22,588 nt of DNA, taken from positions 1-22,588 of IMG/VR virus record IMGVR_UViG_3300012984_000036; one strand, written 5' to 3'. Source of the stretch: a virus. The position numbers and the translations under genes are program-made. Shown piece after piece: positions 8,178 to 22,588 of this stretch (the first letter of the stretch is position 1; every line of letters starts with the position of its first letter). The notes under the pieces were generated by a model. It did not search any database. It saw only the letters and a list, made by a program, of their open reading frames with translations, and was not told where the DNA came from.

Positions 8178-8500
8178 CATACGAAGAAAAAGTCTTTCAA
8201 CACACAGGATTAATTATGAATACCTCCGGAAATCCCACAAAGACAGCGAAAGACAAGGAAGAAGCCTGGAATATCCAGAAACTGCCGGAAGACGGTCAGC
8301 CTCACGGTTGGATTCAGTGGAAAGGAACTGACGTTTGCATGGACATACATTGCGAGTGCGGCGAGCTAACCCATGTAGACGGCGATTTTTGCTACCATGT
8401 TAAATGCGGTAGCTGCGGCGCGGTGTACTTTTGCAATGGCCACATCGAATTGATTAAGCTAGAAACAGAACCTGATAGTTGCATACTTGAATCAGAATAA
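8174..8500 (+). CDS. Phage zinc-ribbon protein (CxCG type)
   Basis: A 108-residue protein. Its core GWIQWKGTDVCMDIHCECGE, followed by HVDGDFCYHVKCGSCGAVYF, matches a small zinc-ribbon family widespread in phages, with C60/C62 and C78/C81 as likely zinc ligands and extra cysteines at 55, 73 and 87. The biochemical role of this family is not established to my knowledge. The ATG at 8174 overlaps the upstream stop as ATGA, which favours it over the internal Met at residue 15. Confidence 0.75.
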   Translation: MTYEEKVFQHTGLIMNTSGNPTKTAKDKEEAWNIQKLPEDGQPHGWIQWKGTDVCMDIHCECGELTHVDGDFCYHVKCGSCGAVYFCNGHIELIKLETEPDSCILESE

Positions 8501-8510
8501 AAAATACCCT

Positions 8511-8993
8511 ATGAAAAAGCTAACCTACCTCCTCCTTTTCGGTCTCCTGGCATGCGCCGGTACAGACCCTGAACCCGTAAAACAACCCATCAAAGAGCGA
8601 GTGACCTGCTTTTTTGATACTTGGTACATAGTCCACAACGCCCCAGGCGGAGCCATTCCATACGGCACCCACATTACCTACAATATCACCCCGAACGTGA
8701 TCACCGCCAACCATTCTGTTTTGCAGTACACCATGAAAGTAAAGAACCTGGGCCCGCAGACAGTAAAAGTCATGGGAACGATCACCAACATGAACGCTAT
8801 CCTGGCTACTAACCAATTCACCACAAAAACGCTATTCACCACGGATTGTCTTTTGGGTGCGACAAACGATTTCCTGGAGGTATATAAAGTAGGATCCGGA
8901 ACGAATGGGGCTAACGTAGTTGTGACTTTGACCGCGGTAAACGCTTCACACTTGCTAGGTTCCCCTGTTTCAAACTCAATGGTGTTCCAATGA
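8511..8993 (+). CDS. Lipoprotein
   Basis: A 160-residue protein with a lipoprotein signal peptide: MKKLTYLLLFGLLACAGTDP, with the lipobox LLAC and Cys at 18. The mature part is rich in Thr, Asn, Gly and Val in alternating patterns (VLQYTMKVKNLGPQTVKVMG) and is probably an all-beta domain. The upstream extension to 8487 lies partly in the preceding gene and would bury the signal peptide, so the start at 8511 is chosen. Possible roles are superinfection exclusion or modification of the host outer envelope; neither is demonstrated. Confidence 0.7.
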   Translation: MKKLTYLLLFGLLACAGTDPEPVKQPIKERVTCFFDTWYIVHNAPGGAIPYGTHITYNITPNVITANHSVLQYTMKVKNLGPQTVKVMGTITNMNAILATNQFTTKTLFTTDCLLGATNDFLEVYKVGSGTNGANVVVTLTAVNASHLLGSPVSNSMVFQ

Positions 8994-9927: not shown

Positions 9928-10350
9928 ATGGCAGCAGGTAGACCAACGAAGTATTCTGAGGACATTTTAAAGCTCACCGATCAATATATCACCGGGTGTG
10001 AGGATGAAGAGCAAACAATCGTATCAGGGGAAAGCGAAAAATTCACATCCTATAAAGTCAGGGTAAAGGTAAAGATGCCAACCATTGAAGGATTGTCGCT
10101 TTATTTGAATGTTCATAAGGACACAATTTTCGAATGGGACAAGCAACACAAAGAATTTTCCGACTTGCTTAGTGTGTTGCGCGCAAAACAATGCGATAGA
10201 TTGATAAATAAAGGCCTTTCTGGCGATTATAACCCATTTATTGCCAAATTGATACTATCCAAACACGGATACGCAGAGAAGCAGGAGATAGAACATTCAA
10301 CCCCTGAGGATCAGGTTTTCACCATTGGAGGCCAAACCATCAAATTCTAG
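9928..10350 (+). CDS. Terminase small subunit
   Basis: A 140-residue protein. The N-terminus AAGRPTKYSEDIL is characteristic of phage terminase small subunits, and a helix-turn-helix follows (TIEGLSLYLNVHKDTIFEWD, about 52-71) before an oligomerisation-like region (RAKQCDRLINKGLSGDYNPF). It would bind packaging-start DNA and regulate the large subunit. The large subunit gene follows directly and overlaps by about 26 bases. This is one of the best-supported assignments in the window. Confidence 0.85.
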   Translation: MAAGRPTKYSEDILKLTDQYITGCEDEEQTIVSGESEKFTSYKVRVKVKMPTIEGLSLYLNVHKDTIFEWDKQHKEFSDLLSVLRAKQCDRLINKGLSGDYNPFIAKLILSKHGYAEKQEIEHSTPEDQVFTIGGQTIKF

Positions 10351-11650
10351 GGTTCTTTTCGAGCCTTATCCCAAACAGCAGGAGTTCATAGAGGCCATTT
10401 TTTCATGGCTTTACACGTTTCTAACCTATGGCGGCGCTATGGGTGGAGGCAAGACTATTGTTTGCTTTGGTGCCCTAATTACACTTTCAAAATTATTCCC
10501 AGGCTCAAAATGGTGTGTTATTCGCGATTCAATACCCACTTTAAAACGGACCAGCCTTGAATCGTTCAAGAAAATAGTCCCCACCAACTTCATAAAGACC
10601 TTCAATCAGAACGATTTCATTTACACGTTCAAGAATGGCAGCCAGATCATGTTCATGGCCGAGAATTTCGAGCAAGACAAGGAATTTAACCGGTTTAAGG
10701 GACTTGAAGTGAATGGGTTTTTACTCGAGCAGATTGAAGAGCTCCAAGAGGAACTACTGAACATCTGCTTTATCCGGGCTGGCCGGAATAAGATCGATAA
10801 GATGCCACCTCGCCCATTGATCCTGGCAAATGTCAATCCTACCCTTTTATGGCCTAAAAAACGAGTCTATGAACCGTGGAGCAAAGGAAAATTGCCTCCC
10901 GATTGGTTCTATCTGCCGGCAAAGATCTATGATAACAAGACTTTGGCTGAGGACGAACACTACATGCACAATGTCACGGCCCATTTGGATGACATAAGCC
11001 GCCGACAAAAGATCGATGGGGATTGGGATGCGTTTGCCATCGATAAACCTTATTTGTACAAATTCGACATTAAAAAGCATGTAATTGAGTCATACAAGCC
11101 CAATATTCATCTCCCCATCCTGATCAGTTTTGACTTCAATGTCGAACCAATGACGGCCATTGTAGGCCAGCAAATTGATAATTTAACCGCTTATATTTTC
11201 GATGAATTTGAGATCGAAACAGGATCCACTGAGGAGATGTGCGAGCTCATAAAGGCTAAATACAAGGATTGGCGCATGAATATGGACGTGACTGGGGACG
11301 CCACGGGCCGCAATCGCACCTCAGTAACACGCGGCAATCTTAATCACTACCGGGTAATAAAGGATGAATTAGAGCTTTCGGATAACGAAATAAGGGTCCC
11401 ATCCGTGAATATGGCCCATAAAGACTCACGGGTTCTTTGCAACTCAATACTTCAGCACGCCGATGTGTTCATAACAGCCAATTGCGAGAAGGTAATCCGA
11501 GATTGCACCTATGCCCAGGTCGATGAATTCGGGGAGTTGATCAAGACAAAGGACGAGGGGAGACATTTTTTTGACGAAACCCGCTATTTCTGGCATACGA
11601 TTTTCCCTGATTTCATTAAGGCACCCGAAAAATATCGGCGCGAGGAGTAG
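10325..11650 (+). CDS. Terminase large subunit
   Basis: A 441-residue packaging ATPase-nuclease. The Walker A-like motif GGAMGGGKT is at 36-44; the Walker B/Glu motif GFLLEQIEEL at 131-140; the nuclease acids are D270 (LISFDFNVEP), about D325 (DVTGDATGRN) and about D417 (HFFDETRYFWHTIFPDF). Length is normal for the family. There is no ATG before the ATPase motif. The most likely start is TTG at 10325, inside the small subunit gene and in another frame; this is uncommon but keeps the family's N-terminal adenine-binding region (EPYPKQQEFIEA). It threads concatemeric DNA into the procapsid and cuts it. Confidence 0.92.
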   Translation: MEAKPSNSRVLFEPYPKQQEFIEAIFSWLYTFLTYGGAMGGGKTIVCFGALITLSKLFPGSKWCVIRDSIPTLKRTSLESFKKIVPTNFIKTFNQNDFIYTFKNGSQIMFMAENFEQDKEFNRFKGLEVNGFLLEQIEELQEELLNICFIRAGRNKIDKMPPRPLILANVNPTLLWPKKRVYEPWSKGKLPPDWFYLPAKIYDNKTLAEDEHYMHNVTAHLDDISRRQKIDGDWDAFAIDKPYLYKFDIKKHVIESYKPNIHLPILISFDFNVEPMTAIVGQQIDNLTAYIFDEFEIETGSTEEMCELIKAKYKDWRMNMDVTGDATGRNRTSVTRGNLNHYRVIKDELELSDNEIRVPSVNMAHKDSRVLCNSILQHADVFITANCEKVIRDCTYAQVDEFGELIKTKDEGRHFFDETRYFWHTIFPDFIKAPEKYRREE

Positions 11651-12218: not shown

Positions 12219-12349
12219 AGCCGCAATTTATATTCAGGAACAATTCATGGTATTGCGTCATCAAACTGGATGATAACGGCGCGCGCCAATGGAATCTTTT
12301 TGAGCAAGGAGCTTGGGTGCCAAAGTTCATAACCTGTCCAAAAGTATGA
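12215..12349 (+). CDS. Very small hypothetical protein
   Basis: A frame of 44 codons (MKPQFIFRNNSWYCVIKLDD...) that overlaps both the preceding stop and the next start by ATGA. It is rich in aromatic residues, with three Trp (SWYC, QWNLF, AWVPK), and its pattern suggests a small beta-sheet. Its reality rests on the precise stop/start coupling on both sides. Confidence 0.5.
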   Translation: MKPQFIFRNNSWYCVIKLDDNGARQWNLFEQGAWVPKFITCPKV

Positions 12350-12876
12350 CTTACAGCGTAATAGGATGCGGCAGCTCGGGAGAACATTGGGACGGCCACG
12401 GCCTAGCCATAGGCGTAAACGACTGCTTCAAATTCGGCAAGCGCACACCCATTCTTTTGATCGCTAACCACTTTTCGAAGTTCCCGGCGGAGAGAGTTGA
12501 AACAATAAAGCAGCACAACCCTACAAAGTTTTACACGGACAATAACTCATGGAGACATATTTTCCCGAACTATATCCAGGTGCATTTGAGGAGCTGGGAC
12601 GGGATATTGAGAAAGGAACCGGACAGACTTCAGCATGCCAACTCTTCCCCATTTATTGCGATGTCTCTAGCTTATAATTTAGGCGCGTCTAAAATTGTTC
12701 TTTACGGGGTTGAGTTTAATGATCACCCGCATTTCAGGAATGGGATGGAGAAAATGGAGGTCAGGCAGTACAAACAGTTCATCGATCGCCTTCGTGAGAA
12801 AGGCGTTAAGGTTGTACTCGGCGCACCTGGGTCTTTGTTGGAGGAGTTTTTAACGTTTGAAAAACAGATCGCATGA
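12346..12876 (+). CDS. DUF115/GT42-like sugar-transferase-fold protein
   Basis: A 176-residue protein. A Rossmann-like N-terminus (SVIGCGSSGEHW, then GLAIGVNDCFK), a middle NSSPFIAMSLAYNLGASKIV and LYGVEFNDHP recall DUF115/MAF-type flagellin glycosylation proteins and the CST-I sialyltransferase group. This suggests transfer of a nucleotide-activated sugar. It is shorter than bacterial relatives and likely just the core domain. A TTG at 12313 opens the frame earlier, but the ATG at 12346 overlaps the upstream stop (ATGA) and is preferred. It is the first gene of the glycan cassette. The family call is moderate and the substrate unknown. Confidence 0.6.
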   Translation: MTYSVIGCGSSGEHWDGHGLAIGVNDCFKFGKRTPILLIANHFSKFPAERVETIKQHNPTKFYTDNNSWRHIFPNYIQVHLRSWDGILRKEPDRLQHANSSPFIAMSLAYNLGASKIVLYGVEFNDHPHFRNGMEKMEVRQYKQFIDRLREKGVKVVLGAPGSLLEEFLTFEKQIA

Positions 12877-13310
12877 GGAGTGCATTTATCGATAAGATTC
12901 TAGCCCAGGAATACATAAATAGACTCCACAGGCATCATATCGCTAGCATTGGCCATAGGTTTAGTATTGGCGCGTTTAAAAATGATATTTTGGTTGGTGT
13001 TGCTATGGTTGGAAATCCTGTGGCTAGAATGTTAAATGACGGCAAGACTATTGAAGTTAACCGGCTATGCACTGACGGAACGCGTAACGCATGTAGTTTC
13101 TTATATGCAGCATCAGCCCGTGAGGCCAAAAAAAGAGGATATCAAAGAATTGTTACATATATACTTGAATCTGAATCGGGTGCTTCCCTAAGAGGCGCAG
13201 GATGGATTAAAACGAGATTCGTCAAAGGCCAGTCGTGGCATAGAGAAGATAGACCAAGAATTGATAAACATCCAATTTCAAACAAATGGAGGTATGACAA
13301 GATTCTGTAA
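12873..13310 (+). CDS. XF1762 family protein (GNAT-like)
   Basis: A 145-residue protein with features of the phage XF1762 family: HRHHIASIGHRFSIG (19-33), LVGVAMVGNPVARML, TIEVNRLCTDGTRNACSFLY (59-78), then AAGRE-type helix (ASAREAKKRGYQRIVTYILE) and a W-HREDRPRIDKHP tail. Related proteins are usually described as acetyltransferase-like; the reaction is not established to my knowledge. A relation to the phage Mu Mom DNA modification enzyme is possible but is my inference. It is coupled by ATGA to the sugar-transferase-like gene upstream. Confidence 0.78.
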   Translation: MRSAFIDKILAQEYINRLHRHHIASIGHRFSIGAFKNDILVGVAMVGNPVARMLNDGKTIEVNRLCTDGTRNACSFLYAASAREAKKRGYQRIVTYILESESGASLRGAGWIKTRFVKGQSWHREDRPRIDKHPISNKWRYDKIL

Positions 13311-13497
13311 ACGCGGGAAAAGGGTTAACAATCGTTTACCTAAAAAGTATGATGAAAAGGATCTAAGAAAGGCTTTCGAGGCCGGCAGATCGGATAATGC
13401 AGAATGGGGATTTTGTCAGCACGAATTTACCACATTTGAACACTGGAAAGAATTTCTTAAACATGGCAAGAAAATAGGAGGATTCTTTAAAGTATGA
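13294..13497 (+). CDS. Small hypothetical protein
   Basis: A 67-residue basic protein (MTRFCKRGKRVNNRLPKKYD...). A GGAGG sequence just before the ATG at 13294 is one of the few good ribosome-binding sites in the window and decides the start; the longer frame begins inside the previous gene. The middle has FEAGRSDNAEWGF-like and HWKEFLKHGK segments. No family is recognised. It overlaps the previous gene by 17 bases and the next by ATGA. Confidence 0.6.
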   Translation: MTRFCKRGKRVNNRLPKKYDEKDLRKAFEAGRSDNAEWGFCQHEFTTFEHWKEFLKHGKKIGGFFKV

Positions 13498-13589
13498 CAC
13501 ACATCCACTCCTTCAAAAAGTCTCACTTCATCTATCCTAACGGCCTCCTTTGGGTTTGCTCGTGTGGAGAAAAACGGTACGCGTCATGA
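13494..13589 (+). CDS. Very small protein with CxC motif
   Basis: A frame of 31 codons (MTHIHSFKKSHFIYPNGLLW then VCSCGEKRYAS). The CSCGEK end looks like half of a zinc knuckle, with the histidines of HIHSF as possible further ligands. ATGA overlaps exist on both sides. It is too short for homology and the call rests on the coupling pattern. Confidence 0.45.
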   Translation: MTHIHSFKKSHFIYPNGLLWVCSCGEKRYAS

Positions 13590-14251
13590 AGTATTGCACC
13601 ATCATACCAGACAGAGGCGATCGCGACGAGTTAACGCGTTTCAGGCTTCGTCAAATTCGTGACAAATGGCAAATGCCTAATCTTTATGATTGGCCAGCAG
13701 GCGACACGCTTCTAATGGATGAATCTCCAAAGTCAGATAAAATGGATCTCATTCAACGTGTCAAAGATGGAATATCGGACGCAAAGACGTTGAGATATGA
13801 TTTCGCGTTCATCATCGAAAACGACGACTACTACCCGGCCGACTACATCAAAAATCTACTGCCTTTGCTCGGCGGTTTGGACTTCATCGGCTGGCAAAAC
13901 ACCTTCTACTACAACATCAAAACCCGAAGATATTCCCGTCTCGAACATGAAACACATAGCTCACTTTTCTGCACCGGCTTTAGATTGTCTGCTTTGGATT
14001 ATTTTGAATGGCCACCGGATGATTATCCCTTTCTCGATATAGCTTTGTGGAAGCATGCAAAGCAGTCTGGGAAGAACTGGAAGCTGCTTAGGACGGACAA
14101 TCCTTGCGTGGGCATAAAAGGACACGGCATGGGGAAAATGGGCGGAAAAGGGCATAGAATGGAGCTAAACCGGGCCGATCCTGAAATGAAGTGGTTCCGG
14201 GAGAAATTGAACGATGAGGAGGCTTTTAAATTTTACCAGTCGATAGTATGA
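13586..14251 (+). CDS. Glycosyltransferase-like protein (GT-A type)
   Basis: A 221-residue protein. It opens with a strand MKYCTIIPDRGDRDE, as many GT2-like enzymes do, and has an acidic metal-binding-like motif at 78-81 (FAFIIENDDYYPADYI). After it comes GGLDFIGWQNTFYYN and an HSSLFCTGFRLSAL region typical of acceptor-site substrate loops. Activity: transfer of sugar from a nucleotide sugar, donor unknown. The frame opens at 13550, but the ATG at 13586, overlapping the preceding stop, gives the expected N-terminal strand. The cassette context supports the assignment. Confidence 0.7.
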   Translation: MKYCTIIPDRGDRDELTRFRLRQIRDKWQMPNLYDWPAGDTLLMDESPKSDKMDLIQRVKDGISDAKTLRYDFAFIIENDDYYPADYIKNLLPLLGGLDFIGWQNTFYYNIKTRRYSRLEHETHSSLFCTGFRLSALDYFEWPPDDYPFLDIALWKHAKQSGKNWKLLRTDNPCVGIKGHGMGKMGGKGHRMELNRADPEMKWFREKLNDEEAFKFYQSIV

Positions 14252-14403
14252 TAACGAACATTATTGGAATCACATTTTCCGCTCTCGGTGTTGTATACTG
14301 CATATACCGGTATGGCAAAGGGAACAAGGAAGCTATTAACACCGCCATAGCTTTATTTGGCCAGGTGATATTGTGGATTGTAATTATGCTTGTAGAGAAA
14401 TGA
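14248..14403 (+). CDS. Small membrane protein in glycan cassette
   Basis: A frame of 51 codons. Two hydrophobic helices are visible: TNIIGITFSALGVVYCIY at the N-terminus and ALFGQVILWIVIMLVEK at the C-terminus, joined by a basic loop (RYGKGNKEAIN). It overlaps both flanking glycosyltransferase-like genes by ATGA. It may anchor the neighbouring enzymes, but that is a guess. Confidence 0.6.
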   Translation: MITNIIGITFSALGVVYCIYRYGKGNKEAINTAIALFGQVILWIVIMLVEK

Positions 14404-15086
14404 GCAAAATTTCACTCATACATCCGAGTCGTTCCAGATCTTCAAAAGCCATCGAAGTTGCAAAGAGGTGGATTGCTCAGGCCGGAGAACAAGTGGAGTA
14501 TATTTTGTCCATAGATTCAGACGACCCTGAAAAAGCCCTTTATTATCATTTGTTCTTGGGGCGCCGAATTATCTGCAAAGACAACCGATCTGCCATTGAT
14601 GCCATCAACAACGCCGCTAAAGAGGCAACAGGAGACATTTTTGTAGTAGTGTCTGATGACTTCGATTGCCCTTCACAATGGGCAACATCATTGCTTCGAT
14701 GCGTTGAAGGCCGAACTGATTGGATTGCAAAGACAAACGATGGAATCCAGCGTTGGATCATCACATTGCCAATAATGGACCGGGCTTATTATGATCGGTT
14801 CGGATACATTTATCATCCTGACTATATGCACATGTTTTGCGACACACACATGACAGCAGTAGCCGACTTAATCGGCAGGAAGATAAATCTGGAATTGAGG
14901 TTCCCCCACAACCACTATTCAGTAGGCAAATCAGATCGCGATGACATCAACATCCGCGCCGACAAAACATGGGGACAAGGCGAATACACTTTCATGAAAC
15001 ACTATCGAAATAACTTCGGGCTTGTTGATCCTCCTGGTAGAATAACGGATCAGAATTTTCTAAACTGGGTAAATCAAAAGCGATGA
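14400..15086 (+). CDS. Glycosyltransferase-like protein (GT2-like)
   Basis: A 228-residue protein. KISLIHPSRSR starts the Rossmann-like sheet; ILSIDSDDPEK (35-45) follows a first half that binds nucleotide; NRSAIDAINNAAKEATGDIF (62-81) is the GT2 helix before the DxD strand, and VVVSDDFDCPSQW carries the acidic motif (D86, D87, D89). A late W/H-rich segment (FPHNHYSVGKSDRDD) could hold the acceptor site. The start at 14400 overlaps the previous stop as ATGA. The GT fold call is good; sugar and acceptor are unknown. Confidence 0.78.
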   Translation: MSKISLIHPSRSRSSKAIEVAKRWIAQAGEQVEYILSIDSDDPEKALYYHLFLGRRIICKDNRSAIDAINNAAKEATGDIFVVVSDDFDCPSQWATSLLRCVEGRTDWIAKTNDGIQRWIITLPIMDRAYYDRFGYIYHPDYMHMFCDTHMTAVADLIGRKINLELRFPHNHYSVGKSDRDDINIRADKTWGQGEYTFMKHYRNNFGLVDPPGRITDQNFLNWVNQKR

Positions 15087-15274
15087 AAAGGATTTGGGTG
15101 TACATATTCTATGCATTTTTCGCGTCGTCGTTTGTGATTTATGCATATCTATTCTTTGCCAATGATGGATTTAACCATGTATGGACTCCGTGGCAAAAGA
15201 TGCAGATATTTTGGCCGTCCACAATTCCGGCACTAATTTCTTTGATCGTGTTTTTAATCGCCAGAAATAAATGA
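15083..15274 (+). CDS. Small membrane protein in glycan cassette
   Basis: A 63-residue protein with two membrane helices (VYIFYAFFASSFVIYAYLFF and FWPSTIPALISLIVFLI) joined by a short loop containing WTPWQKMQ. Like the 51-residue protein upstream, it is inserted between two glycosyltransferase-like genes with ATGA overlaps. No family is known. Confidence 0.6.
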   Translation: MKRIWVYIFYAFFASSFVIYAYLFFANDGFNHVWTPWQKMQIFWPSTIPALISLIVFLIARNK

Positions 15275-15861
15275 AGAAAGACGAAATTTTACTATCGATT
15301 TTGATTTGTACGATTCCATCACGGAAGCATTTCCTTGTACGTCTAAAAAACATCCTGAATGAACAAGTTATTCCATGGTTTGAGCATGTCGAAATACTTG
15401 TTGATGGTCGCGAAGGAATCAGTATAGGTGAGAAAAGAAATTCACTACTCGATAGAGCTAAAGGTCGCTTCGTCGAATTTTGCGATGACGATGATCGTCC
15501 TGGGGATACATACATTTCAAGCACGATGATTGGCATCGAAAAAGATGCAGACTGTTGCAGCCTTAAAGGAATAATGACAACCAACGGGAAGGATAGGCGA
15601 ACATTCATTCATTCTATCAAATACAAAGAATACCGTGAGTTCAACGGAATTTTTGAGAGATTTCCAAACCACTTGAATTGCATCCGAGCCTCAATCGCCA
15701 AGCAATTCAAGTTCCCCGAAACAAACCACGGAGAAGACACAGATTGGGCGACTCAGATTTTCAAGTCAGGGCTTATAAAAACGGAATTTTGGATTGATGA
15801 TGTCATTTATTTTTACGAGTACATCAGTCCGGAGGTGAGGAAACAATTGAACTACCATTAA
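15271..15861 (+). CDS. Family 2-like glycosyltransferase
   Basis: A 196-residue protein and the clearest GT2 in the window: LLSILICTIPSRK (7-19) as first strand, EILVDGREG (41-49), GEKRNSLLDRAKGRFVEFCD (53-72) with the DDDD metal-binding cluster at 72-75, and NHGEDTDWATQIFKSGL, where E155-D156 fits the catalytic-base 'ED' motif. It is compact, lacking C-terminal membrane helices, so it likely acts in the cytoplasm. ATGA overlap upstream; the next gene starts one base after its stop. Confidence 0.85.
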   Translation: MKKDEILLSILICTIPSRKHFLVRLKNILNEQVIPWFEHVEILVDGREGISIGEKRNSLLDRAKGRFVEFCDDDDRPGDTYISSTMIGIEKDADCCSLKGIMTTNGKDRRTFIHSIKYKEYREFNGIFERFPNHLNCIRASIAKQFKFPETNHGEDTDWATQIFKSGLIKTEFWIDDVIYFYEYISPEVRKQLNYH

Positions 15862-15862
15862 A

Positions 15863-16735
15863 ATGGCGAAACCAGAAACAATAAAAGGCGCAATCTCATT
15901 TAGTCTATTCGGCTATGGTCGGGTGACGCCGGCAAACACGTTCGAATTCGATACCTACTGCCGTGGCTTTTTCATAAACATGCGCATCAACCGCGTGCTT
16001 TATCCTGGCTGGACAACGATCCTCAACATCGACCACGAAACCTATAACTCTCCTTACAAAGAGCTTTTTGAGTACATGGTTGGCCAGCGCTGGATCAAAG
16101 TGCATAAGTCACCAGATAACGAACCGCTTTGCAAGGCCATGCTTTGGAGGCTCAAGCCTGTCTACTTCTATACGCATCCTGAATGGGATTACACGCACGT
16201 TTTGTTTCGAGACACTGACTCTATCGGAACTTATCGCGAGGCCCAGGCGGTCACGCAATGGATCGAGGAGGACAAAACTATTCATTGCATCACAGATTCA
16301 ATCTCACACAACATTCCTTTCATGGGCGGTATGACCGGCGTTCGGCCCGGATATTTTAATGAAAGAATGGGAGTTGGAACATGGGATGAACTTTTGGAAC
16401 TGTCTAAGGGCATTGACTTTTCACACAAGGGAAGCGACCAGACGTTTTTGAATCGATTCGTTTATCCGCGTTGCGCTGATTCGAGTAGCGAACACTTTTG
16501 CCTTGGCATGGTTCATAATCTTCCCGAAGGAAACGGGCGACATTACTCCATTCCGGATATTGAAGTGCCTGGCGTAGACGTGAATCATAAATCGCTCAAC
16601 GATTGTGCCGGCCACATCGGATCCAGTGGTTATTATGAACCTCCAATGCTGCGATGGTTGAAGAACGTTGATCCGAATCGCGAAGAGTACAAAGAAATTG
16701 AAAGCAAGTACCCGCGCTTGTTTTTCTGGAGTTAA
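15863..16735 (+). CDS. Glycosyltransferase-like protein with DTD motif
   Basis: A 290-residue protein. AISFSLFGYG (10-19) opens the fold; LCKAMLWRLKPVYFYT (89-104) and HVLFRDTDSIGTYREA (112-127) have the helix, strand and DxD (DTD at 117-119) typical of GT-A proteins whose donor site reads 'K...R..pi....yD.vl.rDsDs'. The late part has SHKGSDQTFLNRFVYP, a pattern like the 'DQ..lN' motif of GT8-like enzymes. It is the longest enzyme of the cassette. The start (ATG) follows the preceding stop by a single base; a 26-base gap follows before the HNH gene. Confidence 0.78.
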   Translation: MAKPETIKGAISFSLFGYGRVTPANTFEFDTYCRGFFINMRINRVLYPGWTTILNIDHETYNSPYKELFEYMVGQRWIKVHKSPDNEPLCKAMLWRLKPVYFYTHPEWDYTHVLFRDTDSIGTYREAQAVTQWIEEDKTIHCITDSISHNIPFMGGMTGVRPGYFNERMGVGTWDELLELSKGIDFSHKGSDQTFLNRFVYPRCADSSSEHFCLGMVHNLPEGNGRHYSIPDIEVPGVDVNHKSLNDCAGHIGSSGYYEPPMLRWLKNVDPNREEYKEIESKYPRLFFWS

Positions 16736-16761
16736 ATCGTAAATTGTATTCGCAACCCAAT

Positions 16762-17325
16762 ATGAAAACATCAAAGATATGCCTCGTGATTTTGTGCCTC
16801 TTGCCAGTTCTGGCGGTTGGGTTGCCGCAATCTCATGGGGCTATTTCTTTTATGAAAGAAATACAGCTCACTAGAAATCAAGTGGCAATTGTTGACGATG
16901 ATATTTTTGAATATCTAAATCAATGGAAATGGCGCGCAATGCCTGCCAGAAAGCAACACTATGCGGCTAGGGTAATTTATCCATCAAAGCAAAATTTATT
17001 GATGCATCGATTTATTATGGATGTGATTGATAAGCCAGATATATTCGTAGATCACAGAGATAGAAACCCGTTAAATAATCAAAAATCAAATCTAAGACTC
17101 TGCAACCGAAAACAGAATACCTATAATCAAGCTCCAAAACCAGGATGCACGTCCAAATATAAAGGTGTTTGTCTATATAAAGGCAAGTGGAGATCATCCA
17201 TGAAGCATGATGGTATAACTATAAACATAGGCGATTTCGAATCTGAAATAGACGCCGCGCTTGCATACAATGCAAAGGCGTTAGAATTGCAAGGTGAGTT
17301 TGCGTACCTAAATCAAGTATCATGA
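16762..17325 (+). CDS. HNH endonuclease with AP2 DNA-binding domain, unusual N-terminus
   Basis: A 187-residue frame in three parts. Residues 1-30 (KTSKICLVILCLLPVLAVG...) look like a signal peptide or membrane helix, which is out of place in a DNA-cutting enzyme. From Met31 on (MKEIQLTRNQVAIVDDD) a normal HNH homing-type endonuclease follows: VDHRDRNPLNNQKSNLRLCN (96-115) is the HNH core, and TSKYKGVCLYKGKWRSSMKH onwards is an AP2/ERF-type DNA-binding domain. The true start may be the internal ATG at 16852. The coding sequence looks richer in A and T than its neighbours, and the gene breaks the ATGA chain only on its upstream side. Probably a mobile free-standing endonuclease. Confidence 0.82.
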   Translation: MKTSKICLVILCLLPVLAVGLPQSHGAISFMKEIQLTRNQVAIVDDDIFEYLNQWKWRAMPARKQHYAARVIYPSKQNLLMHRFIMDVIDKPDIFVDHRDRNPLNNQKSNLRLCNRKQNTYNQAPKPGCTSKYKGVCLYKGKWRSSMKHDGITINIGDFESEIDAALAYNAKALELQGEFAYLNQVS

Positions 17326-18158
17326 AATACATAATTTTGTCTGTAAACGAATCGCCAGAATATTTTTTCTATGTCCCCCTGACCTGCTGGGCCTGGCGTC
17401 GCATAGGCTGGACCCCGATCCTTTTCTATCACCGCGAGAACGAAAGCGACTCACTTACGCCAGTGGAGGAACTTGTCGCCAAATATTCCAGTGTTGAAAC
17501 TCATTTCTTGAAGTCTATTCCTGGTTATCGTAGCGACACTATCACGCAGACATCCCGTCTTTATGGAACGTGCGTTAAGGATGGCTTCATCATGACAGGG
17601 GATATAGATATGATCCCATTGTCCGATTACTGGCAGCATGAAGTTGACGACGACACTATCACGGTTTACGGACATGACCTTACCGGGTACACGCAATACC
17701 CGATCTGTTACATAGCGATGAACTCAGCCAACTGGGCCAACGTGATGAACATTTCCGGAAAGGATTACAATGCCTTCCTTGAAAGGGACCTCAAGACAAT
17801 GCCACAGGCCCTCAGCAAGGACTTCAATCATTATTGGGGATGTGATCAGGACTTAATCACAGAGCGCCTACAGGGAAAGCAAATCAAAATTATCAACCGT
17901 GGGCAATACTCCAACGGATATGCCAAAGGCCGCATTGATCGCGGAGCCTGGTCAGTGGATCACGAACAACTGATCGACTGTCACGATCACCGCGACTTGT
18001 TCAAGCATTTCTACACCAAAGAAATACCAGAGGATCAAAAAATGCTATACGCCCGAAAGTGGTTTGAGCATCTTCAAATGCTTGCCCGGGTTTGGCCTAA
18101 TGAAGATTTCAATTGGTACTTCGATTTCATGGAACAATATGCTAAACTTGTACAATGA
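17322..18158 (+). CDS. Glycosyltransferase-like protein with DID motif
   Basis: A 278-residue protein. The N-terminal strand MKYIILSVNESPEYFFYVPL is followed by RRIGWTPILFYH. GFIMTGDIDMIPLSDYW (88-104) carries the DxD (94-96), consistent with a GT-A metal site. ITVYGHDLTGYTQYPICYIA and HYWGCDQDLITERL (acid pair after a Trp-Gly, as in GT8-like enzymes) come later. The WFEHLQMLARVWPNEDFNWY end is aromatic. The ATG overlaps the stop of the HNH gene as ATGA. Donor and acceptor are not known. Confidence 0.75.
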   Translation: MKYIILSVNESPEYFFYVPLTCWAWRRIGWTPILFYHRENESDSLTPVEELVAKYSSVETHFLKSIPGYRSDTITQTSRLYGTCVKDGFIMTGDIDMIPLSDYWQHEVDDDTITVYGHDLTGYTQYPICYIAMNSANWANVMNISGKDYNAFLERDLKTMPQALSKDFNHYWGCDQDLITERLQGKQIKIINRGQYSNGYAKGRIDRGAWSVDHEQLIDCHDHRDLFKHFYTKEIPEDQKMLYARKWFEHLQMLARVWPNEDFNWYFDFMEQYAKLVQ

Positions 18159-18880
18159 ATAAGCGTTGTATCGTAAACGTGGCCACGGGCGAGTTCTATT
18201 GCAAACAGCAGTTAGCATTAAGAAATTCAGCCAGATACTATGTGAATCAGACTATAATAATTCAATCCGATCGGCCTAACGTCATGTTCAGAGACGATCC
18301 GTCAAACTCTGGAATAGATTTAATTTTATGGCATGATTTATTTCCTGCTGGAAAGACTCACGAAGAATCGCCATATGGGTTTAAGCTTAGGGCCATTAAA
18401 GCAGCCTATAAGGAAGGCAGAAGCTCTATTTTGTGGGTCGACAGCCCTGCATCCCTAATAAATGGCCTTGATCCAATCTTCGAAAAGATCGAAAAACACG
18501 GATACTACGCCATGTCCCACCACGACCCGCTAGAAAACTGGGTAGGAGACACGGCCCTAAAACGCTTTGGAATGACGCGTGAGCAACTCAAAGGCTTTCA
18601 CCTGCCCTCCGGTTCATGCTACGGTTTTGATCTGTCTCAGGCCTGGGTACGCCGTCTATTCGACATGTTTTGCCAGTACGAAGAAGAGGGGCTTTTCAAA
18701 TCAGAGGTGATCGGTACGGATAAGTGGCACCGACACGACGAGGCTATTTTGGCTTTGCTGCTCATTCAGCATAGTTTACCGGTTTTTTTCAACGACCCGC
18801 TTTTTCAAAGTGACTCACCGGAATGCGTGATCCGATCCGGCGCTAATTGGACTCAGGACGCTAAAGTTTATGGAGGATGA
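18155..18880 (+). CDS. GT-like protein without a clear DxD
   Basis: A 241-residue protein. The fold resembles its neighbours: VNVATGEFYCKQQLALRNSA, GFKLRAIKAAYKEGRSSILW (75-94), but the strand that should end in DxD reads ILWVDSPASLI (92-102), with only D96. A second acidic site, KWHRHDEAILALLLIQHSLP, is present later. Such sequences could be metal-independent transferases or inactive partners. It is coupled by ATGA on both sides, to a glycosyltransferase and the FkbM methyltransferase. Confidence 0.6.
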   Translation: MNKRCIVNVATGEFYCKQQLALRNSARYYVNQTIIIQSDRPNVMFRDDPSNSGIDLILWHDLFPAGKTHEESPYGFKLRAIKAAYKEGRSSILWVDSPASLINGLDPIFEKIEKHGYYAMSHHDPLENWVGDTALKRFGMTREQLKGFHLPSGSCYGFDLSQAWVRRLFDMFCQYEEEGLFKSEVIGTDKWHRHDEAILALLLIQHSLPVFFNDPLFQSDSPECVIRSGANWTQDAKVYGG

Positions 18881-19485
18881 AAGATCTTCGATGCATCGAT
18901 GAACACACGTTTGATAGGGGTTTGCTTTCCGGCAAGTTAGCTATAGATGCCGGTTGTCGTGGCTGGCTATTTAGCATGGCCATGCGTGATTTTGGATGTG
19001 AAACACTTGCTTTGGACATTGAAAACTTCTATCCTAACATTCCTGAGGGAATCCACTATCAAAATGCAGCCTTATGGGATAAGGGTGAATTTATTGACGC
19101 TTATTTCTTCGGAAACGGAACGGCAAATTTCATAAAAGGTGTAAACGAGACGCCTTATAATGGTCCTGATAGACCATGTGAGACTAAAATGGTTAGAGCA
19201 TTCCCATTGAATCATATCATAAAATGGTGCAAGTGTCAAGAGATTGACATTCTAAAGACAGACATAGAAGGAAGTGAATACGGCGTTCTAATGAACATAA
19301 CCAAAGACCTATTGCCGCGTCAAATAAGCTGCGAATTTCATCCACACTGCCACACGGAGTTACATAACAGATGGTTTGATACAGTATTGGCGCATCTTTC
19401 TCTATGGTATGATGTTTCATTTCATTCGAACTATACACAATATCCTTCACTCGACACTCTTTTCATTCGGAGGGACTTGCTATGA
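18877..19485 (+). CDS. FkbM family methyltransferase
   Basis: A 202-residue protein. AIDAGCRGWLFSMAMRDFG (22-40) is the SAM-binding motif I region; LALDIENFYPN has the acidic end of strand 2; IDILKTDIEGSEYGVLMNI is the diagnostic FkbM signature (D-I-E-G-x-E). The end (ISCEFHPHCHTELHNRW) has histidines near the expected active site. Such enzymes O-methylate hydroxyl groups, often on sugars. Position between glycosyltransferase-like genes suggests sugar methylation, which would cap or vary a glycan. ATGA overlaps on both sides. Confidence 0.85.
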   Translation: MKDLRCIDEHTFDRGLLSGKLAIDAGCRGWLFSMAMRDFGCETLALDIENFYPNIPEGIHYQNAALWDKGEFIDAYFFGNGTANFIKGVNETPYNGPDRPCETKMVRAFPLNHIIKWCKCQEIDILKTDIEGSEYGVLMNITKDLLPRQISCEFHPHCHTELHNRWFDTVLAHLSLWYDVSFHSNYTQYPSLDTLFIRRDLL

Positions 19486-20174
19486 AAATATTCGCCTTCT
19501 GCTACTCCTGCAAACGTGACGAGGACCTATCTGAACTGATGGTCGATACACTCATAGCCAATGCTATCCCAATGATCGAGCAAATCAGAATTAAAAACAC
19601 TGACGACACGCTCTACGGAAATGGTTCCGGATGGGAAGCATCGATGATGAAACTACAAGGCCTGCGCGACATGCTTTCAGACTATAACATAGGCGATGGC
19701 GATTTCATCCTATCAGTAGATAGCGATGTAGTCTTTACTTCACCGGAAGTATTTCAATGCCTGGACCAACGCTACGGCATCATAGGAACTGTCAGCGATC
19801 AACCATGGGTAACACGCCACGGAGTTTGGGGCCATTGCTCAGGAGCTTTAATGTTCATCCGTGGAGACATCGCCAAAAAGATGGCAGCCCTCGAAAAGCA
19901 TCGCCTCGACAAAATAAGAATCGAAGACTTCAAAGCATACGACATCACCGAAAACGAGGATGTTGTTTTAAGCTATCTAGCGATGATTTGTGGGGCCGAG
20001 GCAATGAACTTGCCCAGTAGATTGAGTAGTGGTAATTTTGAGTTTGACGTTACGCATGACGCGTTGAAGTCATTTTACCACCTCAATTACTGTCCTACGG
20101 AGTTCATGGGGGAAAAAGTTTCGGGAAAATGGCAAATCCCGGCAGTTTTGAGACGTAAAGGAATAGAATTATGA
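19482..20174 (+). CDS. Glycosyltransferase-like protein with DSD motif
   Basis: A 230-residue protein. MKIFAFCYSCKRDEDLSEL opens the fold; GSGWEASMMKLQGLRDMLSD precedes the metal-binding strand DFILSVDSDVVFTSPEVF (74-91, DSD at 80-82). GVWGHCSGALMFIRGDIAKK is the acceptor-side loop pattern and ITENEDVVLSYLAMICGA the catalytic-acid region. This is a good GT-A match. The pattern resembles nucleotide-diphospho-sugar transferases found in phages and bacteria; substrates cannot be inferred. Confidence 0.78.
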   Translation: MKIFAFCYSCKRDEDLSELMVDTLIANAIPMIEQIRIKNTDDTLYGNGSGWEASMMKLQGLRDMLSDYNIGDGDFILSVDSDVVFTSPEVFQCLDQRYGIIGTVSDQPWVTRHGVWGHCSGALMFIRGDIAKKMAALEKHRLDKIRIEDFKAYDITENEDVVLSYLAMICGAEAMNLPSRLSSGNFEFDVTHDALKSFYHLNYCPTEFMGEKVSGKWQIPAVLRRKGIEL

Positions 20175-20701
20175 CGCGCGAACAATTCATTCACAACTAT
20201 GAAAACTGGGATTCCTACAAACCGCTTCTTTGGGAGGCCCTGGAGCGAACCGCTGGCGACATAATTGAAATGGGCACTGGCAAAGGATCAACCGCATTGC
20301 TTCACGAGTATTCATCGGAAACAGGCCGTAAGTTGTGGAGCTATGAGGCCGATTATGATTGGTGGAAAACGGCATTAATCCATGAATCACTGAATCATAA
20401 AGTAATATGGACCGGAAGTGAGCCGAACGAGTGGAATATAGTTTATCTACATCATGGTAACAGGGTTCGAAACATTGGAGTAGTCTTCATTGATCATGCA
20501 CCTGGCGAGCGAAGGAAAGTCGATATTAATATCCTGCGAGACGTGGATATAATCGTAGCTCACGACACAGAGCCATCGGCCGACCACGGCTACCAGATGC
20601 GAGACGAAATAAAGAAGTTCAAGTATTGGAGAGACTTTGAGACGCCGGGTGCCTGGGCCTCGATTATGAGTAATTTCGTAGATGTAACCAAACCACTATG
20701 A
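20171..20701 (+). CDS. Class I SAM-dependent methyltransferase-like protein
   Basis: A 176-residue protein. GDIIEMGTGKGSTALLHEYS (29-48) is a clear motif I (E-M-G-T-G-K-G). LWSYEADYDWWKTA puts the acid E at the end of strand 2, and VVFIDHAPGERRKVDINILR followed by DIIVAHDTE is strand 4-5 as in the Methyltransf_24/cephalosporin hydroxylase-like group. It may methylate a sugar hydroxyl in the product of its neighbours. ATGA overlaps on both sides place it in the same translation unit. Substrate is unknown. Confidence 0.75.
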   Translation: MTREQFIHNYENWDSYKPLLWEALERTAGDIIEMGTGKGSTALLHEYSSETGRKLWSYEADYDWWKTALIHESLNHKVIWTGSEPNEWNIVYLHHGNRVRNIGVVFIDHAPGERRKVDINILRDVDIIVAHDTEPSADHGYQMRDEIKKFKYWRDFETPGAWASIMSNFVDVTKPL

Positions 20702-21444
20702 AGCTGGCCGCTATTTTCAATGTTTGGATGGATAGCATTGAATTGCTCGGCAGGGCTATAGAATGCATGCCCGCTGAAGAGATAATAATAGTTTGGTCCG
20801 AATATTCCAATAGAGGTGAACGTGCCACGCCATACCTTTATATGTATGGTCAAAAGGTGCACTTTGTTCAGTGTGAACCAAAATCATACAATAATCCGGC
20901 GGATAGTGAAACCAGAAAGCGAAATGCAGGATTACATAAGGCAAAAGAGCTCGGGTGCACGCACTTCATAATGTGCGATTCTGATGAATTCTACATTAGG
21001 GAAGAATTTGAAGAAACCAAAAAATTATTTGATAGTACTTGCATTTACGGAGTTGTTCACCCCGTAAGAGTTTATGTGGGGAGACCTACTTTGTGGTGCG
21101 ATGATCACACTTTAGTGCCTGGTATTCAAAGGCTTTTTGATGATTCTGAGGTTGGCTTTTTTCAGCGATACCCTTTCGCGTATGATCGTGAAGGAAATGC
21201 TCATATTGACCCCACTCGGCGGCCTAACACTGACATCGGAATTGATAAAAGTCCTTTCTTCATGCATCACATGAGCTATGTAAGACAAAATATAGACCTG
21301 AAGATCAGAAACAGCTCGGCCAACTTACGCCGTTCAGAAGCCGCCATAAAGCGCGACATCGCCAACGCCGCGCCGGGTTACATGAGCGAACTTTACCACC
21401 GTGAGTTAAAGGAATCAGAGAACTTATTCGGAATAACAATATGA
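20698..21444 (+). CDS. Family 2-like glycosyltransferase
   Basis: A 248-residue protein. MKLAAIFNVWMDSIELLGRA resembles GT2-like 'AiynVyD..E.L..si' N-termini. SETRKRNAGLHKAKELGCTH (70-89) is the pre-DxD helix and FIMCDSDEFYIREEF has the DSD at 94-96. A WCDDHTLVPGIQRLF region and a final MHHMSYVRQNIDLKIRNSSA match the pattern seen in GT2-type proteins of 'glycosyl transferase family 92/2' kind. It is the last enzyme of the coupled cassette, ATGA overlap with the DUF1360-like gene. Confidence 0.8.
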   Translation: MKLAAIFNVWMDSIELLGRAIECMPAEEIIIVWSEYSNRGERATPYLYMYGQKVHFVQCEPKSYNNPADSETRKRNAGLHKAKELGCTHFIMCDSDEFYIREEFEETKKLFDSTCIYGVVHPVRVYVGRPTLWCDDHTLVPGIQRLFDDSEVGFFQRYPFAYDREGNAHIDPTRRPNTDIGIDKSPFFMHHMSYVRQNIDLKIRNSSANLRRSEAAIKRDIANAAPGYMSELYHRELKESENLFGITI

Positions 21445-21734
21445 CAGACTTTTTATTATGGATAGAGATTTCATGTTTTTGGATATGGGGTATTCACTTC
21501 TGCTTCAGAGAGAATCAGATATTTGGTAAAGTGGGCGATTGGCTCTATGGCAGGCTCCCAAAATGGTTGTGCAAGCCTCTGTTCAAATGCCCTATGTGCA
21601 TGGCCTCAATCCACGGTACGGTCCTTTATTTGGCCTCTCCTATGCATTATCTTTGGTACATGCACCTGCTTTTCGTGGTAGCTTTATGCGGATTAAACGA
21701 CATCATCGACGGTTTAACGGCAGATTATGATTAA
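21441..21734 (+). CDS. DUF1360-like membrane protein
   Basis: A 97-residue protein with three hydrophobic segments (LLWIEISCFWIWGIHFCF; SIHGTVLYLASPMHYLWYMH; LLFVVALCGLNDIIDGL) and a FKCPMCMASIHGT motif around residue 50. The C-P-x-C near the start of a membrane helix is typical of DUF1360 and similar small membrane proteins found in phages and bacteria near sporulation or cell-envelope genes. Function is not established. It joins the cassette (upstream ATGA) and overlaps the next gene by eight bases. Confidence 0.65.
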   Translation: MTDFLLWIEISCFWIWGIHFCFRENQIFGKVGDWLYGRLPKWLCKPLFKCPMCMASIHGTVLYLASPMHYLWYMHLLFVVALCGLNDIIDGLTADYD

Positions 21735-22338
21735 GAAACTCAAAGCTTTATTCACCAGCAAAGAACCGGCCTTCAATCTCCATCACCCGGACCTGGCCAA
21801 CAAAATCGTTTTTGCCTTCGAGTGCGGCGGCAAGAAATACTACCGCTTTGGCGATGCTGAAAACTCCAATGAAATAGCTATGCCCACCGGGCGGTACAAG
21901 TTTTACCTTGCCTTTCTACAGGAGGTTGAATTGCGCATGACATTGCCTACGCTTCAAAAGTATTTGGCCGAGCTCAGAAAGGCATTAGAAGGCGGCCAGG
22001 GACAAGTAAAGTTAGGGCGAGCCTGGGAGCTGATCATTTCAATGGAGGGACGCACAAAGCTTGCCTTTGAGCCTGCGACCGTCCGCCGGCTAGCTTCCGT
22101 CACTTACTTCGACGAACACGAGGATCTAAGCGACTATGACCGGGCTTATTGCGACAAAAAACTGGCCCATTGGGATAAATATGATGGCTTAGGTTTTTTT
22201 TTGAGGACGCCGATCAAGGAATTATGCGGGCTCAGCGGTATATCACTCAACGATTTGACAGAATATATGAATCAGATGGACGCCGTAATAAGAGATTTGA
22301 CTCCCGACACCCAGATTCAATCCTCGACGAGTTCATAA
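21727..22338 (+). CDS. Probable tail assembly chaperone
   Basis: A 203-residue soluble protein (MIKKLKALFTSKEPAFNLHH...) with KIVFAFECGGKKYYRFGDAE, a helical LQEVELRMTLPTLQKYLAEL, and a late Tyr/Asp-rich stretch. I do not recognise a family with certainty. It lies immediately before the probable tape measure gene and is overlapped by a second frame shifted by -1, the layout of phage tail assembly chaperones (lambda G/T). A run of nine T's (22194-22202) is at the start of the shared open region and could allow slippage (codons GGT TTT TTT TTG). Position supports the role more than sequence does. Confidence 0.5.
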   Translation: MIKKLKALFTSKEPAFNLHHPDLANKIVFAFECGGKKYYRFGDAENSNEIAMPTGRYKFYLAFLQEVELRMTLPTLQKYLAELRKALEGGQGQVKLGRAWELIISMEGRTKLAFEPATVRRLASVTYFDEHEDLSDYDRAYCDKKLAHWDKYDGLGFFLRTPIKELCGLSGISLNDLTEYMNQMDAVIRDLTPDTQIQSSTSS

Positions 22339-22343
22339 CCGGC

Positions 22344-22484
22344 ATGGACTACCAGATTAAATTGGTGGCTGATTTCAATAGTTCGGAGGAAGAAAGATGG
22401 CGACGGGCCTCCTGGTATGACTTCAATCACCATATTGATTCACTCAGGAAGCGCAAAGAGGCCATAGAACAGCGAGAAAATTAG
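22344..22484 (+). CDS. Downstream frame of the putative tail chaperone pair
   Basis: From the ATG at 22344 the protein is 46 residues (MDYQIKLVADFNSSEEERWR...), strongly charged and helical. The same frame is open from 22185, overlapping the previous gene in the -1 frame; an ATG at 22224 would give 86 residues but needs a 115-base overlap. Residues just upstream of 22344 (PDSILDEFITG) look protein-like, which suggests translation enters from upstream by -1 frameshifting. Both independent start and frameshift product are possible. It may be the T-like extension of the chaperone. Confidence 0.5.
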   Translation: MDYQIKLVADFNSSEEERWRRASWYDFNHHIDSLRKRKEAIEQREN

Positions 22485-22544: not shown

Positions 22545-22588
22545 ATGGCCGATCGGACGGTTAACATCAACATCAATTATAAGGTAAA
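22545..22588 (+). CDS. Start of a probable tail tape measure protein (cut by window end)
   Basis: Fourteen codons are visible (MADRTVNININYKV) before the window ends. This opening, with alternating Asn and Ile after MAD-T-V, resembles N-termini of tape measure proteins in Bacteroidota phages. The position right after a chaperone-like pair agrees. Tape measure proteins set tail length and are typically very long, which cannot be checked here. A 28-codon frame starting at 22501 overlaps this and is probably noise. Confidence 0.5.
   Translation, partial: MADRTVNININYKV

Follow-up and report, generated by a model that had tools for sequence, protein, structure and literature searches.

The window analysed here is the full IMG/VR record IMGVR_UViG_3300012984_000036, 22,588 bases long, a fragment of the genome of an uncultivated tailed phage. 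In its left part, the minus strand carries an exonuclease and RecT, and the plus strand carries NinG and small genes, followed by the genes of both terminase subunits, the large one (TerL) sharing 61–73% identity with the TerL of its relatives. After TerL come two small open reading frames and then a dense 9.1-kb row of genes, the cassette (12313–21444), which encodes a GT42-like protein, eight GT-A-type enzymes, an FkbM methyltransferase and a second methyltransferase-like protein, and which also holds a Mom-like acyltransferase and an HNH endonuclease insert. The features from the terminase onwards are:

9928–10350, plus strand: terminase small subunit (Pfam PF16677, GP3_package, 1.1e-21; phrog_606, 3.1e-14)
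10325–11650, plus strand: terminase large subunit, TerL (phrog_979, 4.7e-18)
12313–12876 (ATG 12346), plus strand: A, DUF115/GT42-like (sialyltransferase-like) protein, core gene (phrog_4603, 7.5e-5)
12873–13310, plus strand: B, Mom-like acyltransferase (DNA modification), predicted (phrog_1384, 1.9e-33)
13550–14251 (ATG 13586), plus strand: C, GT-A glycosyltransferase, GT2-like, core gene (model; invariant ExDD)
14248–14403, plus strand: C2, small protein with two transmembrane-like segments (hydropathy)
14373–15086 (likely ATG 14400), plus strand: D, GT2-like glycosyltransferase (phrog_14945, 9.8e-20)
15083–15274, plus strand: D2, small protein with two transmembrane-like segments (hydropathy)
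15271–15861, plus strand: E, GT2 glycosyltransferase, homologous to Che8 gp108 and LittleE gp15 (phrog_14775, 8e-36)
15863–16735, plus strand: F, GT-A-like glycosyltransferase by motif (invariant RDxD; no profile match)
16744–17325, plus strand: HNH endonuclease insert (PF13392, 3.2e-6; phrog_99, 2.4e-33)
17322–18158, plus strand: G, GT-A glycosyltransferase, GT8-like (model; invariant GDxD)
18155–18880, plus strand: H, GT-A-like protein by motif (invariant D96; syntenic in relatives; no profile match)
18877–19485, plus strand: I, FkbM-type methyltransferase (PF05050, 4.5e-6, above cut-off)
19482–20174, plus strand: J, GT-A-like glycosyltransferase by motif (invariant DSD)
20171–20701, plus strand: K, methyltransferase-like by glycine-rich motif (invariant E33, G35, G37, G39)
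20698–21444, plus strand: L, GT2-like glycosyltransferase (DxDE; linked to C)
21441–21734, plus strand: M, small membrane protein adjoining N (hydropathy; synteny in most relatives)
21727–22338, plus strand: N, tail assembly chaperone (G-like), which in relatives directly precedes the tape measure gene
22194–22202, plus strand: slippery run (GGT TTT TTT TTG) for a -1 frameshift from N into O (same sequence in the related genome G004)
22224–22484, plus strand: O, -1 frame extension of the chaperone (GT-like; open -1 frame 22185–22484)
22545–22588, plus strand: start of the tail tape measure protein, truncated by the contig end (MADRTVNININYKV matches the start of an 810-amino-acid protein of G004)

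The glycosyltransferases of the cassette are of several types. By sequence, E is securely assigned as a glycosyltransferase, with matches to PDB glycosyltransferases (5tz8, 4.3e-9; GalT1, 3.5e-8), and there is good evidence that D is one, as it also matches Streptomyces phage glycosyltransferases and, narrowly below the cut-off, Pfam PF00535 (2.9e-4). Sequence searches with C gave no useful match, but its structural model (pLDDT, the predicted local distance difference test, 87.8) has the GT-A enzymes WrtF, heparosan synthase and SpsA as its top PDB matches (probability 1.00, E about 1e-5), with moderate template modelling scores, mostly 0.43–0.55. The viral matches of C include a Che8 glycosyltransferase (Q855A2, 2.5e-6), and profile–profile comparison links C to E (91.7%) and to L (80.7%), which an iterated hidden Markov model (HMM) of C also finds at 7e-17. 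G appears GT8-like, its model of medium confidence (pLDDT 72) retrieving a GT8 protein, UGGT, GlyE and glycogenin from 4.7e-7. Sequence, profile or model thus supports the GT-A type for C, D, E, G and L, while F, H and J are called GT-A-like solely from motif and context; J reaches PF01762 at 0.0036, below the cut-off. PDB profile searches with F, G, J, L and K returned nothing useful, and profile–profile comparison among F, G, H and J revealed no mutual link. A and C had no tblastn match in cultured phages, and G had one weak match, in an uncultured phage. No transmembrane segment was found by hydropathy in any of the cassette glycosyltransferases.

The original prediction had placed acidic motifs at 13819, 14655, 15484, 16211, 17601, 19719 and 20977, and all seven fall on residues that are invariant within their families, as judged from alignments of 6 to 17 homologues per family: E90/D92/D93 in C, D95/D96 in D, D72/D74/D75 in E, D117/D119 in F, D94/D96 in G, D80/D82 in J and D94/D96/E97 in L. 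It overlooked the eighth GT-A-like gene (H), the Mom-like gene B and the HNH endonuclease gene. Its claim that the enzymes are not recent copies of one gene agrees with a non-redundant set, which is supported by their distinct types (GT2-like C, D, E and L, GT8-like G, GT42-like A and the FkbM enzyme I). The proposed DUF115/GT42-like protein looks GT42-like, weakly by sequence: all nine matches of A to PDB profiles are GT42 sialyltransferases, at E values of 0.05–0.15. Of the two methyltransferases proposed, I is upheld by its profile match and K is not confirmed, profile searches with K giving no match and its methyltransferase likeness having been judged by eye. Small membrane proteins had been noted as well; those found here are C2, D2 and M.

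These genes are tightly coupled to one another and to tail genes. From A to M, most neighbouring genes share a four-base ATGA stop/start overlap. Together with the terminase profiles, these overlaps confirm a coupled row of about 9 kb behind the terminase subunits, and M overlaps N by eight bases. N has no PHROG name; it carries the slippery site, whose T run also occurs in the related genome G003, and the open -1 frame runs beyond its stop. The conserved GGTTTTTTTTTG run and the open -1 frame constitute the classical programmed frameshift of tail assembly chaperones. The 810-amino-acid protein of G004 matches PHROG tape measure families. The expectation that tail genes come next is therefore correct and, given the ATGA borders, the M–N overlap, the chaperone pair and the start of the tape measure gene, the cassette lies in one packed unit with them.

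Relatives were retrieved by terminase and by C and include nine long genomes, seven with the cassette (G002, G003, G004, G010, G011, G012 and G013), one from a sister clade (G016) and one with no cassette (G022). Three of them look complete, judging from the exact repeats at their ends: 127 bases in G002, 120 in G010 and 90 in G011. In all nine, TerL is followed by the cassette or by nothing, then by N, the tape measure gene, more structural genes, the portal gene (in G004, phrog_7376 at 4.3e-17) and a capsid candidate, which has no PHROG or profile name and was placed by position. In G004 this candidate is a 363-amino-acid protein encoded at 37698–38789. The cassette had been proposed to stand in the place of head genes; this is contradicted by the portal lying downstream of the tape measure gene in every long relative, cassette or not, and these portal positions rule out that head genes were replaced or lost. 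Across a wider group (L065–L073, L058–L064, G016 and G022), chaperone and tape measure genes likewise come after the terminase, with the portal about 10 kb later.

The cassette-bearing loci group together as a single clade in the TerL tree (100/99), and the pair that this clade makes with its sister clade is joined at 98/95. Sister-clade members have homologues of E, H and, in some, D upstream of TerL, and M–N downstream of it. Nine further loci (L065–L073) have TerL, N and the tape measure gene with nothing between, and a search with the E profile gave no match in four records from the cassette-less group (G019–G022). The tail-first order is thus independent of the cassette, which occupies a TerL–N junction that is otherwise empty. 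Because the midpoint root of the tree serves for drawing only, we infer rather than observe whether the cassette was gained or lost.

Within the clade, A and C are kept in all members whose contigs reach them, while the remaining content turns over rapidly. G002 and G001 have a shorter set with other glycosyltransferases plus a methyltransferase, and G012 carries FkbM and Methyltransf_24-like genes. G001 and G002 are 98–99% alike in RecT and the exonuclease, compared with 56–85% in A, C and other cassette enzymes; since their tape measure proteins also differ (67%), fast change extends beyond the cassette.

We interpret the cassette as a late-expressed virion-glycosylation module, placed between terminase and tail genes in an uncultivated lineage of tailed phages, and give this reading a probability of about 0.62. 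Soluble cytoplasmic glycosyltransferases of several families would take host sugar nucleotides and build an oligosaccharide stepwise on freshly synthesised capsid, tail tube or fibre proteins of the virion; the FkbM enzyme I, and perhaps K, would methylate this oligosaccharide. The reading is favoured by the ATGA-coupled run that reaches through M into the chaperone N, with TerL upstream, by the lack of transmembrane segments in the glycosyltransferases and by the absences of GtrA, PF00303 and PF00145 in relatives described below. We infer which proteins accept the glycan, in what order the enzymes act and which sugars they add, as well as the advantage gained, which may be shielding, adsorption or stability. 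A multi-step, methylated glycan, as originally predicted, agrees with the multi-enzyme set of distinct types and with I, the contribution of K being unconfirmed.

The E family provides the connection to phage particles. E shares 35–36% identity by tblastn with Che8 gp108 and LittleE gp15, which its family HMM finds at 4e-38 and 7e-46, respectively. In Che8, gp108 adjoins gp109–110, and the capsid of this phage carries glycans, according to PMC11256854 and PMC12363180, which report Freeman 2023. LittleE gp15 directly follows the major capsid gene. In cluster O phages, an O-methyltransferase and three glycosyltransferases modify the capsid and tail tube (PMC11600133). An E-family gene lies downstream of the portal gene in the sister-clade genomes G016 and G017; in G016 it directly precedes a methyltransferase-like gene (by eye; no Pfam match), followed by the capsid candidate. 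At 29811–31328 of G016 (reverse-complement coordinates), the E-family glycosyltransferase and methyltransferase-like genes stand between head genes and the capsid candidate.

Several points weigh against virion glycosylation. No profile support was found for F, H, J and K; enzymes of the FkbM, GT2 and GT8 kinds are also used in making lipopolysaccharide and capsule; C2, D2 and M are membrane proteins that could have a role in the envelope; and the lineage is known here from its genes alone, from which the acceptor is deduced. The essential Che8 glycosyltransferase is, moreover, named as gp110 in PMC12363180, and no cassette family matched Che8 gp109 or gp110.

The enzymes might instead remodel host surface glycans, altering lipopolysaccharide or capsule and thereby blocking superinfection or re-adsorption. 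Enzymes of the FkbM, GT2, GT8 and GT42 types are often involved in making envelope glycans, and C2, D2 and M would suit such a role. However, GtrA (PF04138) was absent from eight relatives in a search with a positive control that did not extend to flippases, polymerases or initiating phosphoglycosyltransferases; this absence, like those of PF00303 and PF00145 given below, holds for the relatives, the window's own genome being incomplete. No membrane-bound glycosyltransferase is present in the window, and the cassette is coupled to late tail genes, unlike seroconversion genes, which as a rule are expressed by themselves from a prophage. We consider surface remodelling rather unlikely.

DNA hypermodification, in which the glycosyltransferases would decorate modified bases against restriction, is far less probable. 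Phage glycosyltransferases acting on DNA exist (Pyle 2024, as cited in PMC12619734), and the cassette includes B, which by sequence belongs to the Mom family as a predicted acyltransferase (Pfam Mom, 1.5e-4, below cut-off). The Mom-like gene is, however, absent from eight relatives and specific to this window. A thymidylate-synthase-family hydroxymethylase (PF00303) was absent from 12 relatives in a search with a positive control, and a C5 DNA methylase (PF00145) was absent from eight; a search of eight relatives for Tet/JBP dioxygenases, run with no positive control, gave no match. At the position of B, G004 has another small gene. Among the three targets originally considered, the evidence favours virion proteins; there is little support for DNA, and host surface glycans are a less likely alternative.

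That the genes are unrelated cargo with no joint pathway, in a variable island between terminase and tail, is suggested by the strong variation in gene content among relatives and by the divergence of G001 and G002 in the cassette, but is very improbable given that most identifiable content in the examined relatives is glycosyltransferase or methyltransferase, that A and C are kept, and that catalytic residues are invariant.

Virion glycosylation may also be taken further: the particles could carry a long, multi-sugar methylated glycan, built directly on them by up to nine non-redundant transferases, with swaps of cassette alleles among close relatives generating an O-antigen-like variation of the virion surface. 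We regard this extension as doubtful.

Between F and G the cassette is interrupted by the HNH gene, which G004 lacks at this place; in the window it is joined to G by an ATGA overlap. It is probably a homing endonuclease outside the glycan pathway. The cassette of G011 likewise contains an HNH gene.

Shine–Dalgarno-like motifs precede 3 of 25 starts, which is background level, and relatives of the portal and RecT proteins include Elizabethkingia, Leeuwenhoekiella and Riemerella phages. From the missing Shine–Dalgarno signals and the flavobacterial matches, our guess is a Bacteroidota host. The sole close match in the host-contig search was L026, a 51-kb phage contig of the clade within a metagenome-assembled genome of Candidatus Paceibacterota, whose placement there is probably a binning error; this match was set aside for assigning a host. 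Farther upstream, a lipoprotein-like gene (8487–8993; LLLFGLLACAG signal) is 80% identical in G004 despite variable neighbours, and its product could be an exclusion or envelope protein.

To our knowledge, most of what is known about glycosylation of phage particles comes from a few mycobacteriophages. Should the virion be the target, the cassette would extend such glycosylation to a separate environmental lineage with a much larger, fast-changing enzyme set, and the relatives would offer a natural series of cassettes for probing the roles of virion glycans outside animal immunity. Irrespective of the target, the analysis documents a phage group in which tail genes precede head genes after the terminase.

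Literature searches for earlier accounts of such a cassette or gene order yielded nothing on point, and the terminase–cassette junction had no DNA similarity to cultured phages. Phage DNA glycosylation systems (T4-type hydroxymethylcytosine, Tet/JBP-linked) resemble the cassette in their glycosyltransferases and through its Mom-like neighbour, but differ in that no base-hydroxymethylating gene was detected in the relatives (for Tet/JBP, with the control limitation given above). The Gtr seroconversion clusters of temperate phages (GtrA–GtrB–GtrC) are likewise phage-borne glycosyltransferases, unlike the cassette in their GtrA and membrane glycosyltransferase. The gp15–gp21 glycosyltransferase block of LittleE (Omegavirus) has an E homologue (gp15) and sits inside a late structural operon, although between capsid and head–tail connector genes rather than between terminase and tail chaperone. 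With the virion glycosylation genes of Che8 (gp108–110) and Corndog (cluster O), the cassette shares a homologous GT2 enzyme (E, related to Che8 gp108) and the combination of glycosyltransferases with a methyltransferase, here the FkbM enzyme I, in one cluster. These phages have about three glycosyltransferases, compared with about nine in the cassette, among them GT8-like and GT42-like ones; their clusters occupy another place in the genome, and the present lineage has no detectable DNA similarity to them. Their target has been demonstrated, whereas here it is proposed from gene content. Overall, the cassette is real and enzymatically diverse, and it is most likely an enlarged variant of the known virion glycosylation modules.

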